Shown: positions 42,539 to 48,486 of the stretch, one piece after another
Layout of the letters: every line of letters starts with the position of its first letter
How positions within the stretch are numbered: the first letter of the stretch is position 1
Source of the DNA: Konateibacter massiliensis
Lineage (GTDB): Bacteria; Bacillota; Clostridia; Lachnospirales; Lachnospiraceae
Direction of reading: 5' to 3'
Length of the DNA stretch: 64,000 bases
Assembly (NCBI RefSeq): GCF_900184995.1
Contig: NZ_LT860098.1
Span: 749,001 to 813,000 of the forward strand
Position numbers and translations under genes: made by a program
Notes under the pieces: generated by a model
The model's database searches: none
Told to the model about the DNA's origin: nothing
The model's input: only the letters and a program-made list of their open reading frames with translations

Positions 42539-45172
42539 TTATATGATGTCTTCAAAATCGCTTTCCTGTAAGATGACTCTTTTTTCCTCATCATATCTTC
42601 TCTTCATAATGACATCCTTTAGACGTTTGAATTTCTTCTTATTATTCTGTGCAATTGCCTTATCGATGATGTCCTTTACCTGCTCAATGGTAAGGGCTTC
42701 TTCATCTTTTTGGATATTCCCAAGGCATGTATACAGTGCAAGTATTGCCATATCATCGATAGCGTACATCAATGTCTTTGCATACTCTTTTCCGAATTCA
42801 ACCAGCTCATCATTATTGTATTCCGGCAGCTCTATCCGGTAGGTTATCTGGTTTGCAAAATCTTTATCTCTGCCCAGCACGCCCTCTATTCCGGCTTTTG
42901 TATCCTCCAGGATAAGCATAATCTCTTCATTTGCCTCACGAATGGTTGACATAATATTCTTAATTGCCTTTTCCGTAAGATTTCCGGCTTTTTCAATAAT
43001 TAAAACGCCGCCCTCCATCTTGTCCATCAAGAGCTTCATATCCTTCGTATTAAGGGAATTTGCAGATATCTTTGCAACCTTGGCACTCTTTTTATTCTGT
43101 GCCATCTGAACACCCTTCGCAATTGCCATTCCAAGCGTTGTTTTTCCGGTCTGCTCATTACCGATCAATGCGATATTCCCCGCCTCAAAAGGAATTCCCT
43201 CTTGATTTGCCGCATTCATCGGAGCAAATATTTTATTTAATGACTTTTCTACACCGCGCACAGATAAAAATGCTGCGAAAAGCTCCTGCTGGCTCTTCGT
43301 CAATCCGCCTGGCTGACTTTTCTTACTCTCATCTGCTTGCCTGCTGTCATCCTCTTCGTCCTCCAGCTCATCCTCAATCATAGCTTGAAGATTCTTCGGC
43401 AGGCTGGACGTGATTCTTCCCTCAATTGCCGCAGCGGCGTTATCATCATCCTCCGCTTCATCCAAAACCGGCTGGCCTGATTGTTCTGCAATATTCGAGG
43501 AAACCTCGTTTTCTTCCTGCGCAAGCTCAAGCTCGGCAAGCGTCTGCTCATCCAATCCTACCTCATCTAAATCAAAGTCTTGGTCATCCGCCAAATCTGT
43601 CATTGTTTCTATTGAAGCGTCCTCATTCAAATCGGCTTCCGATTGGCTTGCTTCCTCTAAGTTCACATCCGCTAAATCTGGCTGATTTAAATCTACTTCT
43701 GATTGGCTTGCTTCATCCAAATTTATCTCCGCAATGTCTTCATTACTCAAACTTATACCATCTAAATCAATCTCTTCCAGCCCGATATCTCTCGTGCTCA
43801 AGTCATCCGGCTCATTTTCCAGCGTAGCTGCAACCTGTGCCAGTGCCGCATCCTCTTCAAGAAAGCTCGCTTCCAGTGCCGCTACAATTTCATCACCGTT
43901 TGCCTTCATCTCTTCCTCAGATATGATAAGAGCAAGCTTTGCCATAATATTTTCCGCTTTTTGAAGCGCTTTGCCCTTTGTCTCGTTCAGACGCTTTAAT
44001 TCCGCTTCCTTGATTGCTACTTCCGCCGCAGATTTCATCTTCTCCCATTCATTCAAAACATCCTCGATTTTCATCTGACCCGTAATCTGTTTTTCCAGAA
44101 TGTTTGCCTCCGGCATATAAAGACTTATCTGTCCGTCATTTTCCTGCGCAAGTATTCTGTCGAAGCTCACCTTCTCATCCGGTGCATCTTTGGAAATCTC
44201 CATCTCACCCGGCATTTCAACCTGTAAAGTCTCCGGCACTATCTCATTTTTCTCAAGCTCTTCATCAAATTTCAAATCAAGAATCTGGCTGTCTTCCACC
44301 AATCTTCTGATATTTTCCATCGTCGTGTCAACAGCTTCCTTCTCTGTTGCACTCATAATCTGTTCCATGCTCTTTGCAAGCTCCGCCTGCAAATTGATGG
44401 TATCATATTTTCCAAGGTTAACCGGCTTTATTTTAATGTCATCCGGGTCTACCTCCTCAGAAAACATCTCCTCTGTAATTACTTCCAACCGGGAAGTGTC
44501 CAAAAAGGCACTATCGTCCTCTTCATCCTCGTCGAAGAATTCGGTTTCTTCCTCCTTGACATCATTTCTGTGCTCATACTTCTCCTGCTGCTCCGACGTC
44601 AACGGGCGGTAAAGCATCTTCAGCTCCATTGCCTTTTCTACATACTTGCCCTCACTAAACCAGAGAATAATCTCATCGCACTCTTCGATGCACCTAGAGC
44701 CCATTCCTGCTTCGTGATACAGATGAGCCAGCTCATAAGCCCATTCCTCGTGATATTCTCTCTCCTTAAATGCCTCCATAATAGGAATCAGTTCCTCCGC
44801 AGAAGCACCCTTCGCTTTATAAATCTTGTATTTTAAAATATCAGCCGCAATATCTCCCGGTGATAAATGCACAAATTCTCGGTAGTAATCAATTGCTTCC
44901 TCATAATCTTCCATCTTGATTGCGAGCTCTGCGAGCTTGTATACCATCATTCTTCCGATTGGCGAACGGTCATAAGCCATCAACAAAAGTTCATGGCTCT
45001 CTTCGTATTTTCCGTTTTTCTCATAAATATCGCTTACGGTACAAAGCATGGAAACATTTTTTACTCGTCTCCAGTCAATCGTATCTGCAAGTTTCATTGC
45101 AGCTTCAAAATTTCCCTCATTCACAAGCTTTCTGATTTGATCCGCTTTTATTCTGTATTCATACTTGTCCAT
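42539..45172 (-). CDS. TPR protein with acidic repeat linker and AAA-like C-terminal domain
   Basis: About 877 residues in three parts. Residues 1-210 are TPR-like helices (LVNEGNFEAAMKLADTID, NGKYEESHELLLMAYDRSP, MEDYEEAIDYYREFVHLSP). Residues about 210-630 are very acidic, with two near-identical blocks of the form L-(D/E)-E-A-S-Q-S-E-(V/A)-D-L-N. Residues about 640-877 form a P-loop domain with Walker A IGNEQTGKTTLGMAIAKG, but the Walker B position reads GGVLIIEKAG rather than hhhhDE, and no arginine finger is obvious. It may be a nucleotide-binding scaffold rather than an active ATPase. The function is unknown. The start is ATG 45172 (AGAGGTGG upstream). Confidence 0.7.
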   Translation of the reverse strand: MDKYEYRIKADQIRKLVNEGNFEAAMKLADTIDWRRVKNVSMLCTVSDIYEKNGKYEESHELLLMAYDRSPIGRMMVYKLAELAIKMEDYEEAIDYYREFVHLSPGDIAADILKYKIYKAKGASAEELIPIMEAFKEREYHEEWAYELAHLYHEAGMGSRCIEECDEIILWFSEGKYVEKAMELKMLYRPLTSEQQEKYEHRNDVKEEETEFFDEDEEDDSAFLDTSRLEVITEEMFSEEVDPDDIKIKPVNLGKYDTINLQAELAKSMEQIMSATEKEAVDTTMENIRRLVEDSQILDLKFDEELEKNEIVPETLQVEMPGEMEISKDAPDEKVSFDRILAQENDGQISLYMPEANILEKQITGQMKIEDVLNEWEKMKSAAEVAIKEAELKRLNETKGKALQKAENIMAKLALIISEEEMKANGDEIVAALEASFLEEDAALAQVAATLENEPDDLSTRDIGLEEIDLDGISLSNEDIAEINLDEASQSEVDLNQPDLADVNLEEASQSEADLNEDASIETMTDLADDQDFDLDEVGLDEQTLAELELAQEENEVSSNIAEQSGQPVLDEAEDDDNAAAAIEGRITSSLPKNLQAMIEDELEDEEDDSRQADESKKSQPGGLTKSQQELFAAFLSVRGVEKSLNKIFAPMNAANQEGIPFEAGNIALIGNEQTGKTTLGMAIAKGVQMAQNKKSAKVAKISANSLNTKDMKLLMDKMEGGVLIIEKAGNLTEKAIKNIMSTIREANEEIMLILEDTKAGIEGVLGRDKDFANQITYRIELPEYNNDELVEFGKEYAKTLMYAIDDMAILALYTCLGNIQKDEEALTIEQVKDIIDKAIAQNNKKKFKRLKDVIMKRRYDEEKRVILQESDFEDII

Positions 45173-45217
45173 TACCAATCCACCTCTGCCATTGTCCGCA
45201 CAATGTTTTTTGTCGCC

Positions 45218-45258: not shown

Positions 45259-45301
45259 AAAAAAGCTAAAATATACGCGATAAAAAACGAATGTACACAG
45301 C

Positions 45302-45341
45302 AAAAGAGAATTTATGCCAAACATAACATAAACTCTCTTTT
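45302..45341 (-). terminator. Terminator-like hairpin at the end of the candidate RNA
   Basis: AAAAGAGA-x-TTTATG / CATAAA-x-TCTCTTTT with a 10-base loop. The T-run is short and part of the stem, so efficiency is uncertain. Confidence 0.55.
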
Positions 45342-45819
45342 GTGATTTGATTCTATTCAATTGTTTTTATTTCAATTACTTTTCATTTCATTATTGTTTT
45401 TCATTAATCGGAGGCTTCTTTTGTGATTTACGCCTGTGTATATTGATATACTATGTATTTCCCATTTCATCAATTATTGACAGTTGCAATCTGATATTTC
45501 AAATGTCTTTCACAGTACATTTTCAATGCTTTCACAAATACATTTTCTAGAATTATTCATTAATTTGAATTCTTGAATTCTTTGCCAAGATTTCTCGTCT
45601 CTCAACTTGAATTCTCAATTCGCATTAACTAATATTTTCTATGAATCTATCTGCTTTCACACTTTTATAAAATGTTTCTTTACACATTCTATAAAACTAT
45701 CAGACTCTTTTCGTGACTTCCTTCAATATGTGGGTTTTCTGATCACTCGTATATATCTCCGGTTTCTTCTCTCCGATTCATTTCTCATTTGTTTTTTTCC
45801 GGAATTCTCTATATTTAAA

Positions 45820-45894
45820 TTACACAGACATTTTTTTAAACCCCGTCACGGCATATTGAACGATTGACTCTTCTGGCATTCCCACTGGAATCAT
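45820..45894 (-). CDS. Possible 24-residue leader or small protein inside the candidate RNA
   Basis: ATG 45894 is preceded by AAGGAAAGAGG. The product begins MIPVGMPEESIVQY and ends FKKMSV. No family is recognised and there is no membrane segment. It may be a chance ORF in a structured RNA, or a real small protein encoded by it. Confidence 0.3.
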   Translation of the reverse strand: MIPVGMPEESIVQYAVTGFKKMSV

Positions 45895-45980
45895 CCTCTT
45901 TCCTTCGAATACTTTTAATTAGTTTTTTCTCTTTCTAATTATTCGTATTGTCTTATATGCTTTATCTCTTTGTTAAGCTA

Positions 45981-46009
45981 ATCTTAGCATAAGAGTCTTA
46001 TTTTGTCAA
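45981..46009 (-). promoter_or_regulatory. Strong extended -10 promoter for the candidate RNA
   Basis: Minus-strand TTGACA (46004-46009), 17 bases, TAAGAT (45981-45986) with TGC directly before the -10. It lies more than 800 bases from the next protein-coding start. Confidence 0.8.
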
Positions 46010-46197: not shown

Positions 46198-48486
46198 TTA
46201 GTCTCTATAGGTATTAATCAAGCATCCTTTTAAAATAATGTTTCTCTCATCATCTGTCAGCTCACCCATCCTCAGAGTGAATTCCTTCAGTGTGTCTCCC
46301 ACAACGAACGCCTTCATTTCCGTCTGCTTTTCCTCAACTGCTTTTTTGATATCCGGCACGAAGATATAATCACCATTCTTAAACGGAAGCTCCTCTTTAT
46401 CAATAATAAATGGAAGCATACCCCAGTTAATCAGATTGGAGCGGTATCTCTTTGTCGCATACTCATTGGCAATATTCGCCCAGCCACCGAGCACTCTCTG
46501 ACATGATGCAGCCTGTTCACGAGCGGAACCGTCTCCCGGCTTCACTGCAAAAATCGTACTTCCGATTCCTGTATTTTCATTATTTACAGAAGCGTATTTC
46601 TCTTTGATTGTCTTAAATACAGGTTTCAGCTCGGATAATGCTTCCTCCGGTGCCTGTCCTGCTCTTCTTGCATTCTCTGCCTGATGCACTTCCTTTGCTC
46701 TTCCTACATATTCCGGATCTTTTCTGGAAAGCGTAAACTCTGCCAGTCCAATCGGGTTAGAGCGGTATGAGGAGGTCTCTCCGGACGGAATTAATTCGTC
46801 CGTTGTCGTAACAGGATCATGAATCTCAGATACAACCTTAATCAGCATATTGTCAGTAAGATTTGACATTTCAGGCCAATCCTTAATATTTGGACCAAAC
46901 TTAATCTCAACGCTTGGGTCTGCAACTCCCTTGCTGTCAAATACACGATTTTCATATATTGTCTTATCAAAGAAATATTTTGGATTTGTAAAATCAACAT
47001 CCATATCTGTTGCCGCTGTCAAATATCCCTTGTTTGCTGCCGTAGCCGCAATGGAACGAGCATCCATAAGTGCAACTGAAGAAATTTGTCCGTTCTGCAG
47101 CTTAGAGCCTTCGCGGTTCGGGAAGTTTCTTGTTGAGTGTCTGATACTGAACGCATTGTTAGCCGGTGTATCGCCCGCGCCAAAGCAAGGTCCGCAGAAT
47201 GCTGTTTTCACAACTGCTCCTGCTGCCATCAGCTTCGCAACACTGCCGTTTTTCACAATTTCCATATAAATCGGAGTACTTGCCGGATATACACTCAATG
47301 TAAACTCATCCGATCCGATACTTGCGCCGTTTAAGATATCCGCCGCATCACAAATATTTTCAAAGCCGCCGCCTGCACAGCCTGCAATAATTCCCTGCTC
47401 TACATAAAGCTTTCCGTTTCTCACCTTGTCTCTCAGGCTGAAATTCACTGCTCCGCCAAGACTTACAAGTGCCTTCTTCTCACAGTCTGCAAGGATATCC
47501 ATCAGGTTGGCATTCAACTCCTCAATGGTGTAGGTATTGCTCGGGTGGAACGGCATAGCAATCATCGGCTTTACCTTGCTTAAATCCACATAAATCATAC
47601 CGTCATAGTAAGCAACCTTGTCCGTATTCAGCTCCTCATAGTCTTCTTTTCTTCCGTGAATTTCATAGAACTCTTTTATTGTGTCATCTGTCTTCCAAAT
47701 CGAGGAGAGACAGGTGGTCTCTGTTGTCATTACGTCAACACCCATTCTAAAATCAGCGCTTAAGTTCGCCACTCCGTCTCCGATAAATTCCATTACCTTA
47801 TTGTTTACATAGCCATTTGCAAACACTTCACCGATGATAGCAAGGGCAACGTCCTGAGGTCCTACGCCCTTCTGCGGCTTTCCGGTAAGATAAACGCCCA
47901 CTACCTTCGGCATATTAATATCGTAGGTTTTGGACAAAAGCTGCTTAACAAGCTCCGGTCCTCCTTCTCCGATTGCCATTGTTCCAAGCGCTCCATATCT
48001 GGTATGGCTGTCGGAGCCAAGAATCATCTTGCCGCCGCCTGCAAGCATTTCACGCGCATACTGATGAATAACCGCCTGGTGAGGAGGAACATAGACACCA
48101 CCGTACTTTTTCGCACTGGTCAGTCCAAATATATGATCATCTTCATTGATTGTTCCGCCTACTGCACAAAGGCTGTTGTGGCAGTTGGTCAGTATGTAAG
48201 GAATCGGAAATTTCTCCAGTCCTGACGCTCTTGCTGTCTGTATAATTCCTACAAAGGTAATATCATGGGAGGTCAGCTTGTCAAATTTCAGCTTTAACTT
48301 CTCCATGCTTCCGGATGTATTATGTCTTTCTAATATACGATATGCAATTGTTCCTTTTGCTGCTTCTTCCTTGGAAGGAACCGCAGAACCCAGCTTACTG
48401 CTTAATGCTGCGCTTGCTTGCTCATTGTCTTCAATAATTTCAGTGCCATTTAATAAATATGCACCGTTTTTGTATAATTGTACCAT
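46198..48486 (-). CDS. Aconitase-family hydratase (YbhJ-like)
   Basis: 762 residues. Aconitase-fold landmarks: [20 protein letters not shown], the cluster-ligand candidate [11 protein letters not shown] and [13 protein letters not shown] near the swivelling domain. The usual SCTNG-type first ligand loop reads [12 protein letters not shown], as in the YbhJ branch of the superfamily, so the substrate may not be citrate. It binds a [4Fe-4S] cluster and dehydrates or rehydrates a hydroxy acid. It is a single-gene unit with its own promoter and terminator. TTTCCTCCTC on the plus strand (GAGGAGGAAA on its own) precedes the start. Confidence 0.82.

Follow-up and report, generated by a model that had tools for sequence, protein, structure and literature searches.

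Large structured RNAs of complex fold are rare, and a function is known for only a minority of them. OLE forms a ribonucleoprotein with Oap proteins, and ROOL, GOLLD and OLE all form RNA homo-oligomers; RNAIII, which is part of the agr locus, encodes delta-hemolysin and pairs through C-rich loops with the Shine-Dalgarno sequences of its targets. In the part of PMC3861533 drawn on here, the RNAIII of Staphylococcus aureus, the agr effector, is a molecule of 514 nt with three long-distance helices and an internal short peptide. Passages of PMC12286853 give ROOL as an RNA of about 660 nt with multiple pseudoknots, a variable linker and a function still unknown, encoded in phages and prophages and often near tRNA islands. 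The same passages (PMC12286853) describe GOLLD, also found in phages and prophages, as having many members above 800 nt, with one less conserved part and one conserved part that is the 3′ region. OLE, according to a passage of PMC9723947, is an intricate RNA of about 600 nt in Gram-positive extremophilic or anaerobic species, and a section of PMC8632094 describes the uORF motifs of leader-peptide attenuators.

Here we analyze a locus in a 64,000-nt stretch of the Konateibacter massiliensis genome (the whole of which we call the window), where a minus-strand unit at 46009-45301 consists of a promoter, an RNA of about 675 nt and a closing hairpin. Its family, Lachnospiraceae, is a major group of gut bacteria, and the RNA is matched in about one fifth of the sampled family genomes (84 of 397). 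Comparison of sequences supports an RNA family that recurs across Lachnospiraceae with no match in Rfam 15. With a near-consensus promoter and pseudoknots kept by compensatory change, it is absent from the RNA library searched. The unusual trait, which is fairly well supported, would be a short reading frame, preceded by a dedicated ribosome-binding site, that threads the strands of the core fold, and this weaving of ORF and core strands makes for a concrete, testable link between translation and folding.

The transcription unit and its recurrence in Lachnospiraceae

The unit is syntenic in all three genus genomes (3/3, window included), between the same two genes, both of which lie on the strand of the RNA in the window. 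The upstream neighbor (46198-48486) is an aconitase-family gene by Pfam (Aconitase) and a ‘hydratase’ by NCBIfam (PRK11413), and the downstream one (42539-45178, minus strand) encodes TPR repeats and a weakly CbbX/SpoVK-like C-terminal part, hereafter the TPR/AAA gene; only TPR-type models exceed the Pfam cut-offs in it. By BLAST, the first part of the region is 73-74% identical in both other genus genomes, which are those of Candidatus Galacturonibacter soehngenii and Lachnotalea glycerini DSM 28816, the latter placed in Lachnospiraceae by NCBI.

When 397 genomes of the family were searched with a covariance model of the 200-nt core (R1), 37 matched at E≤1, and 12 matches, including those in the window and in G002, were full-length at E≤2.7e-4, with full-length matches also in other genera. 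The TPR/AAA gene immediately follows seven R1 matches (E 1.6e-9 to 0.14), namely those in G150, G017, G184, G202, G145, G037 and, weakly (E 0.14), G204; their position beside the same gene is thus evidence for the family that does not depend on the model, and by eye the order of elements in their DNA is the same. A second covariance model (R2), built from 19 sequences, matched 98 of the 397 genomes at E≤0.1 and 84 at E<1e-6 (85 matches, as G122 has two), with one match in the window's own genome. The two matches in G122 are divergent and sit on different contigs (C12:353050-353294 and C7:23807-24018), the one on C7 about 1.7 kb upstream of a TPR/AAA gene. For the 313 family genomes with no R2 match at E<1e-6, the RNA is either dispensable or too divergent for the model. 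Searches at the level of the order (295 genomes) and the class (291 genomes), with samples that also include family members, gave weak matches in 6 (E 0.0017-0.029) and 7 (E 0.0051-0.088) genomes, respectively, and those outside Lachnospiraceae were set aside as weak and fewer than a threshold of E≤0.1 per genome predicts by chance. The counts given below refer to 76 copies aligned to R2, which come from 75 of the 84 genomes and from L. glycerini. Judged from the sequences of these copies, the RNA family and its fold are very probably real.

The promoter that the initial annotation had described, TTGACA and TAAGAT separated by 17 nt with a TG before the -10 element, was located on the minus strand (Table 1) and is predicted to start transcription at about 45974. 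Since the stretch holds 8 promoter-like sites against 6.1 ± 2.8 in shuffles, the weight of this one comes from its strength and conservation and not from mere presence: in 71 of 76 copies, the 420 nt ahead of the ORF contain a site with no more than two mismatches to TTGACA/TATAAT, a count that allows spacers of 16-18 nt and stands without a shuffled control. The median distance from the predicted transcription start to the ORF start is 119 nt (72 copies with at most three promoter mismatches), and the median unit length is about 725 nt (46 copies with the closing hairpin called). At the other end, a strong hairpin is indeed present where a terminator-like one had been proposed, but a mechanical terminator scan of the stretch called no terminator, the closing hairpin included. 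The T-run of this hairpin in the window is part of the stem, and the L. glycerini counterpart is followed by a longer T-run. Taken together, the sequence comparison supports a unit with its own near-consensus sigma-70-type promoter that would encode an RNA of roughly 675 nt. The TPR/AAA gene starts further downstream at 45178, and a second promoter-like site (TTGACA-17-TACACT, 45258-45230, minus strand) lies between it and the RNA, which suggests that this gene is transcribed on its own.

Table 1. Positions in the window of the promoter, the RNA and its elements
Feature	Positions	Strand	Remarks
Promoter	45981..46009	-	-35 TTGACA 46009-46004; 17-nt spacer; -10 TAAGAT 45986-45981; TG before -10
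Whole RNA, about 675 nt	45301..45975	-	Promoter to closing hairpin; syntenic in 3/3 genus genomes; family model matches
Shine-Dalgarno-like AAAGAGGATG	45892..45901	-	GAGG at 45898-45895, ahead of short ORF
Short ORF (M)GMPEESIVQYAVTGFKKMSV	45820..45885	-	GTG start, 21 codons and TAA
Helix a, 5′ strand UUCAAUAUG	45852..45860	-	Pairs with 45722-45730; 99.5% of cells paired; double changes in 7/8 pairs
Helix a, 3′ strand CAUAUUGAA	45722..45730	-	Partner of 45852-45860
Helix b, 5′ strand GUGAC	45845..45849	-	Pairs with 45713-45717; crosses a; 97.3% of cells paired; double changes in 5/6 pairs
Helix b, 3′ strand GUCAC	45713..45717	-	Partner of 45845-45849
Helix c, 5′ strand GGGUUU	45838..45843	-	Pairs with 45732-45737; double changes in 4/4 counted pairs
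Helix c, 3′ strand AAACCC	45732..45737	-	Partner of 45838-45843
Helix d, 5′ strand AUGUCUGUGUA	45821..45831	-	Overlaps ORF end; pairs with 45430-45440, about 400 nt away
Helix d, 3′ strand UACACAGGCGU	45430..45440	-	Partner of 45821-45831
Stem of hairpin carrying e, UUCCGG with CCGGAG	45799..45804 with 45757-45762	-	Window and G002; UCUGG/CCAGA in G001, by eye
Helix e, 5′ strand AAUCGGAG	45771..45778	-	In hairpin loop; pairs with 45406-45413; pseudoknot
Helix e, 3′ strand CUCCGAUU	45406..45413	-	Near 3′ end
Helix f, AGUCUGAUA with UAUCAGAUU	45488..45706	-	45706-45698 with 45496-45488; closes middle domain
Helix g, 13-pair hairpin, loop GUAAAGAA	45663..45696	-	Double changes in 11/11 counted pairs; 90-92% of cells paired
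Hairpin loop GACGAGAAA	45591..45599	-	Inside a stretch of roughly 70 nt absent from two genus relatives
Closing hairpin, probable intrinsic terminator	45301..45342	-	Common to 3 genus sequences

Core helices and the docking tail

The minimum free energy of 45977-45295 is -143 kcal/mol, lower than in all 20 dinucleotide shuffles (-108.1 ± 7.4; z -4.7). Several features noted earlier from the letters of the window were found as described: the minus strand is 64% purine, the 13-pair hairpin is formed by TTTTATAGAATGT/ACATTTTATAAAA (45684-45696 paired with 45663-45675), and TGTGAAAG occurs three times (45654-45661, 45529-45536 and 45507-45514), with 0.028 copies expected from base composition. As a family motif, TGTGAAAG was rejected, being present at least once in 8 of 76 copies and three times only in the window; the conserved loops are instead GUAAAGAA (57 of 76) and GACGAGAAA (41 of 76). 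The latter lies ahead of the ORF start in 36 of the 76 copies and is confined to the downstream side in 5, among them the window; in L127 it even precedes the predicted transcription start. Overall it occurs in the window and at 41 further places in the 76 copies, nearly always on a stem of unrelated sequence. Set at differing places like a movable module, this loop may possibly be a protein site or a tertiary contact. On the other strand, a protein was considered and rejected: the window and L. glycerini each have a plus-strand ORF of 86 aa, alike by eye, and G002 has no plus-strand ORF of at least 60 aa at the matching place; we read the 86-aa ORFs as a shadow of RNA conservation.

Comparing the three genus sequences for common helices yielded a consistent set, helices a to g together with the closing hairpin; several of these show compensatory changes. 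Reading from 5′ to 3′, the Shine-Dalgarno sequence and start codon come first; next are the 5′ halves of helices a through d in that order, then a hairpin whose loop holds the 5′ strand of e, the 3′ strands of c, a and b, hairpin g, a middle domain, the 3′ strands of d and e, and the closing hairpin. The middle domain, between hairpin g and the 3′ strand of d, is of very variable length. Helices a and c are nested, a being crossed by b; d and e each cross all three of these, and e in addition crosses d. The stem of the hairpin that carries e was seen in the genus sequences, and the compensatory changes in helix f were found among those same three sequences.

Covariation in homologues, which the initial annotation had proposed as a check, is extensive across the 76 copies. 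Among the core pairs of a, b, c and g, 27 of 29 are changed on both sides and still pair in at least one copy, a count from which two weakly pairing c pairs (A7 columns 78/367 and 79/366) had been excluded beforehand and which was made on an alignment (A7) fitted to a, c and g and so favoring those helices. The 29 pairs contain 275 double-change cells versus 67.7 ± 7.3 in shuffles, and 95.2% of their cells are standard pairs, a proportion that falls to 30-43% when the partner is slid by 1-3 columns. Helix b is in the structure of no search model because it crosses a, yet 97.3% of its cells are paired. The loop of helix g has GTAAAGAA in 57 of 76 copies. In a MAFFT alignment of 19 sequences, which is not structure-fitted, a ranks first and c second, with at most 4 pair types at a position. 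That scan also gave several A-U-rich alternatives overlapping one another; their pair types were few, and we ascribed them to chance.

For the long-range helices d and e, we permuted the 3′ strands among the 43 of 76 copies that have a CUCCG-type tail and an anchor, the 33 without tail or usable anchor having been dropped beforehand, and 0 of 2000 permutations reached the observed complementarity for either d (z 10.8) or e (z 6.0). Helix e has the compensatory variants ACCGAAG/CUUCGGU, AAUCAGAG/CUCUGAUU and AUUCGGAG/CUCCGAAU, and helix d occurs as AUUCUUGCG/CGCAAGAAU, as GGUCCC/GGGACC and in the form of the window. An unanchored search for helix d, taking the best complement within 900 nt, gave no signal (median z 0.47), at most one of 25 cross-copy comparisons reaching the observed score in only 5 of 73 copies. 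When d was sought directly upstream of the CUCCG-type tail (50 copies), the tails of other copies equaled the score in a mean of 18% of comparisons. The comparative evidence supports a 5′ part that would fold into a multiply pseudoknotted core, onto which the 3′ tail would dock through d and e.

The short reading frame and alternative explanations

One alternative is an ornate RNA without any coding part, like OLE, ROOL and GOLLD, that acts as scaffold, cage or ribozyme and in which GGAGG and the NTG after it are structural. The initial annotation had likewise seen a non-coding and nearly ORF-free transcript. Size, pseudoknots, a strong promoter and a variable middle do resemble that group as it appears in passages of PMC12286853, and no minus-strand ORF of at least 40 aa lies in the region, but the window copy has a 21-codon ORF with a Shine-Dalgarno sequence. 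A start codon is found at one place before helix a in 75 of 76 copies (TTG 36, ATG 32, GTG 7, CTG 0), L161 being the sole exception, and 72 of these 75 have a Shine-Dalgarno-like sequence upstream; the restriction to ATG, GTG or TTG at that position speaks against a structural NTG. In 68 of 74 measurable copies, start codon and helix a are 24, 27 or 30 nt apart, and therefore separated by a multiple of three. Over 14 codons the frame is open in 65 of 75 copies versus 25 and 15 for the other two frames, and the bias is kept among 54 representatives less than 75% identical (45 versus 18 and 12), although it is weaker over 9 codons (65 versus 33 and 48 of 75). The Shine-Dalgarno-like sequence is also kept in 23 of 26 copies in which no CUCCG-type tail was found (some with short flanks), so its retention is not accounted for by pairing with that tail.

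What the non-coding alternative has in its favor on this side is the peptide itself, which is variable and poorly conserved, and the 10 of 75 copies whose frame stops after 2-4 codons with start codon and Shine-Dalgarno-like sequence kept. Read-through of the helices is thus not universally needed; five of these ten are also out of phase at helix a. The typical form of the peptide is M-D/G-...-QY-V/E-SG-..., with QY..SG as the best-conserved part; since these residues are encoded where helices a and b lie, their conservation proves nothing about the peptide. The ORF has 14-36 codons in the 65 open copies, and in all of them its codons traverse the 5′ strands of a, b and c, and in the window copy also that of d. 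We conclude that initiation appears to be conserved more firmly than the product. The short ORF is probably translated, judging by these patterns, and an entirely non-coding RNA, which the Shine-Dalgarno sequence, the start codon and the open frame speak against, is a possibility to which we give a minor share.

The kept Shine-Dalgarno sequence, start codon and open frame would also suit a small-protein mRNA, with the peptide as product and the folded part as a stabilizing 3′ untranslated region. Against this, the peptide varies in sequence and in length (14-36 residues), the helices are kept by compensatory changes, and the ten early-stop copies retain the RNA and not the peptide, which together make this reading improbable.

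A third alternative is that the RNA serves the TPR/AAA gene downstream as a cis-acting leader (an attenuator or a riboswitch), in which case the short ORF would encode a leader peptide. In 32 of 76 copies the RNA is indeed followed by the TPR/AAA gene in the same orientation, 228-823 nt past the model match; an aconitase-type gene is upstream on the same strand in 25, both are present in 9, and at least one is present in 48 (with flanks that differ in length). However, in the window the unit has its own closing hairpin and the TPR/AAA gene a separate promoter-like site. In 15 copies, moreover, the gene downstream is instead one for an RluA-family pseudouridine synthase, 434-2816 nt beyond the match, and still others of the remaining copies have unrelated neighbors. 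The RluA-linked copies are L128, L140, L141, L143-L147, L055, L109, L111, L155, L156, L161 and L163; most have ORFs of 14-18 codons or immediate stops, and no TPR/AAA gene was found in their available flanks. The TPR/AAA gene, matched in 194 of 200 family genomes, is also far commoner than the detectable RNA, and among the best 30 TPR/AAA loci (with 1.5-kb flanks) a strong RNA match was present at 4, including those in the window and G002. The adjacency therefore looks like inherited gene order, and we set the TPR/AAA gene aside as a functional partner. With no fixed downstream gene and an intervening hairpin and promoter-like site, the RNA is very unlikely to be a cis-acting leader. Finally, a sponge for a protein such as CsrA, whose GGA-containing loops would titrate a translational regulator, is hardly credible, since the RNA is purine-rich with GGA at several places but by eye has no array of repeated GGA hairpins, and its conservation lies in long-range pseudoknots and not in repeated sites.

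Proposed working and comparison with known RNA classes

We favor, with some reserve, a trans-acting dual-function RNA of RNAIII-like logic in which translation of the short ORF and the closed fold are mutually exclusive. Action in trans is suggested by the unit having its own promoter and closing hairpin, which are kept where the neighbors differ. We tentatively propose two states for such a molecule. In the open one, ribosomes initiating on the short ORF or reading it would keep the 5′ strands of the core helices unpaired, and the RNA would be a small mRNA. If translation of the ORF ceased, the core would snap shut and the 3′ tail would dock on it, and this closed form would be the molecule that acts in trans.

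A more speculative extension, which we consider doubtful, would make the RNA a trans-acting translation sensor that gauges ribosome activity through its miniature ORF. As long as ribosomes occupied this probe, the core would stay open, and with initiation lost, the core and its docked tail would close into an active molecule with effects elsewhere in the cell, either a scaffold or possibly a ribozyme. The early-stop copies keep the Shine-Dalgarno sequence and start codon ahead of a frame that ends after 2-4 codons; they would fit this picture provided that the sensor responds to initiation alone, and all ten leave it possible that initiation itself is the signal. If true, the sensor would apply the logic of a leader peptide with no downstream gene attached to it, in a molecule as large as the ornate RNAs.

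The initial annotation had placed the transcript among large ornate RNAs, and the kind was rightly chosen given the extensive covariation in homologues, but the gathering score of no Rfam family was reached. The Rfam check that it named, with ROOL and other large RNA models, came out empty: of the 4227 families of Rfam 15, among which we assume ROOL, GOLLD and OLE to have been included, and presumably RNAIII as well, none matched anywhere in the window at gathering thresholds. The locus alone at E≤10 gave 10 sub-threshold matches, none near its own gathering score, and the best three (mir-4899, ctRNA_pND324 and mir-553, with 25.6-28.8 bits against gathering scores of 45-85) were treated as chance matches to AT-rich hairpins. 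Likewise, 15 homologous loci, taken from the 30 R1 loci, gave no Rfam match at E≤0.5. ARAGORN found no tRNA in the window, and a tmRNA was rejected as neither ARAGORN in the window nor Rfam gave one.

BLAST of the window copy against 50,697 records of phages and 72,556 of plasmids gave no match, although divergent copies would escape such a search. Thus a phage, prophage or tRNA-island setting like that of ROOL and GOLLD was not found for the window copy. A strict viral-contig pattern, which catches 21 of the 76 known copies, found none, and a loose pattern gave at least 120 loci, mostly by chance, with R2 yielding one weak match (E 0.022) on the 80 of them that were listed. In the literature, as covered by title and abstract, we found no description of this RNA; it could be among the 3,161 motifs of PMC8040213, and ‘Lachno’ does not occur in passages of PMC11109978, PMC8040213, PMC8632094 and PMC6429828.

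Among the described systems, leader-peptide attenuators of the uORF type share with our reading that translation of a short ORF would compete with RNA pairing (as in a section of PMC8632094), whereas the Lachnospiraceae RNA ends in its own hairpin with no fixed downstream gene. GOLLD, from the passages of PMC12286853, is similar in having one better- and one less-conserved part; the Lachnospiraceae RNA is however best conserved in its 5′ part, has ordinary gene neighbors and is without an Rfam match. ROOL resembles it in size, multiple pseudoknots and a part of variable length (PMC12286853, in part), but the Lachnospiraceae RNA differs in its short ORF and in matching nothing in Rfam; besides, the window contains no tRNA, and its copy matched neither phage nor plasmid records. 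OLE is of similar size and has an intricate fold (in the passage of PMC9723947), and differs in that the Lachnospiraceae RNA has a short ORF and, again, no Rfam match.

In combining a large structured RNA with what appears to be a short open reading frame, the Lachnospiraceae RNA would belong with dual-function RNAs. Its relation to RNAIII seems to be one of working by analogy, yet no kinship is evident. The neighbors in the window are hydratase/aconitase-type and TPR/AAA genes where an agr connection might be asked for, and the short-ORF peptides vary widely among copies. Unlike in RNAIII, the ORF supplies strands of the core pseudoknots; the bacteria are different and Rfam gave no match. What the two have in common, as far as the part of PMC3861533 used here describes RNAIII, is that both are large and intricately folded, with a short peptide frame inside.
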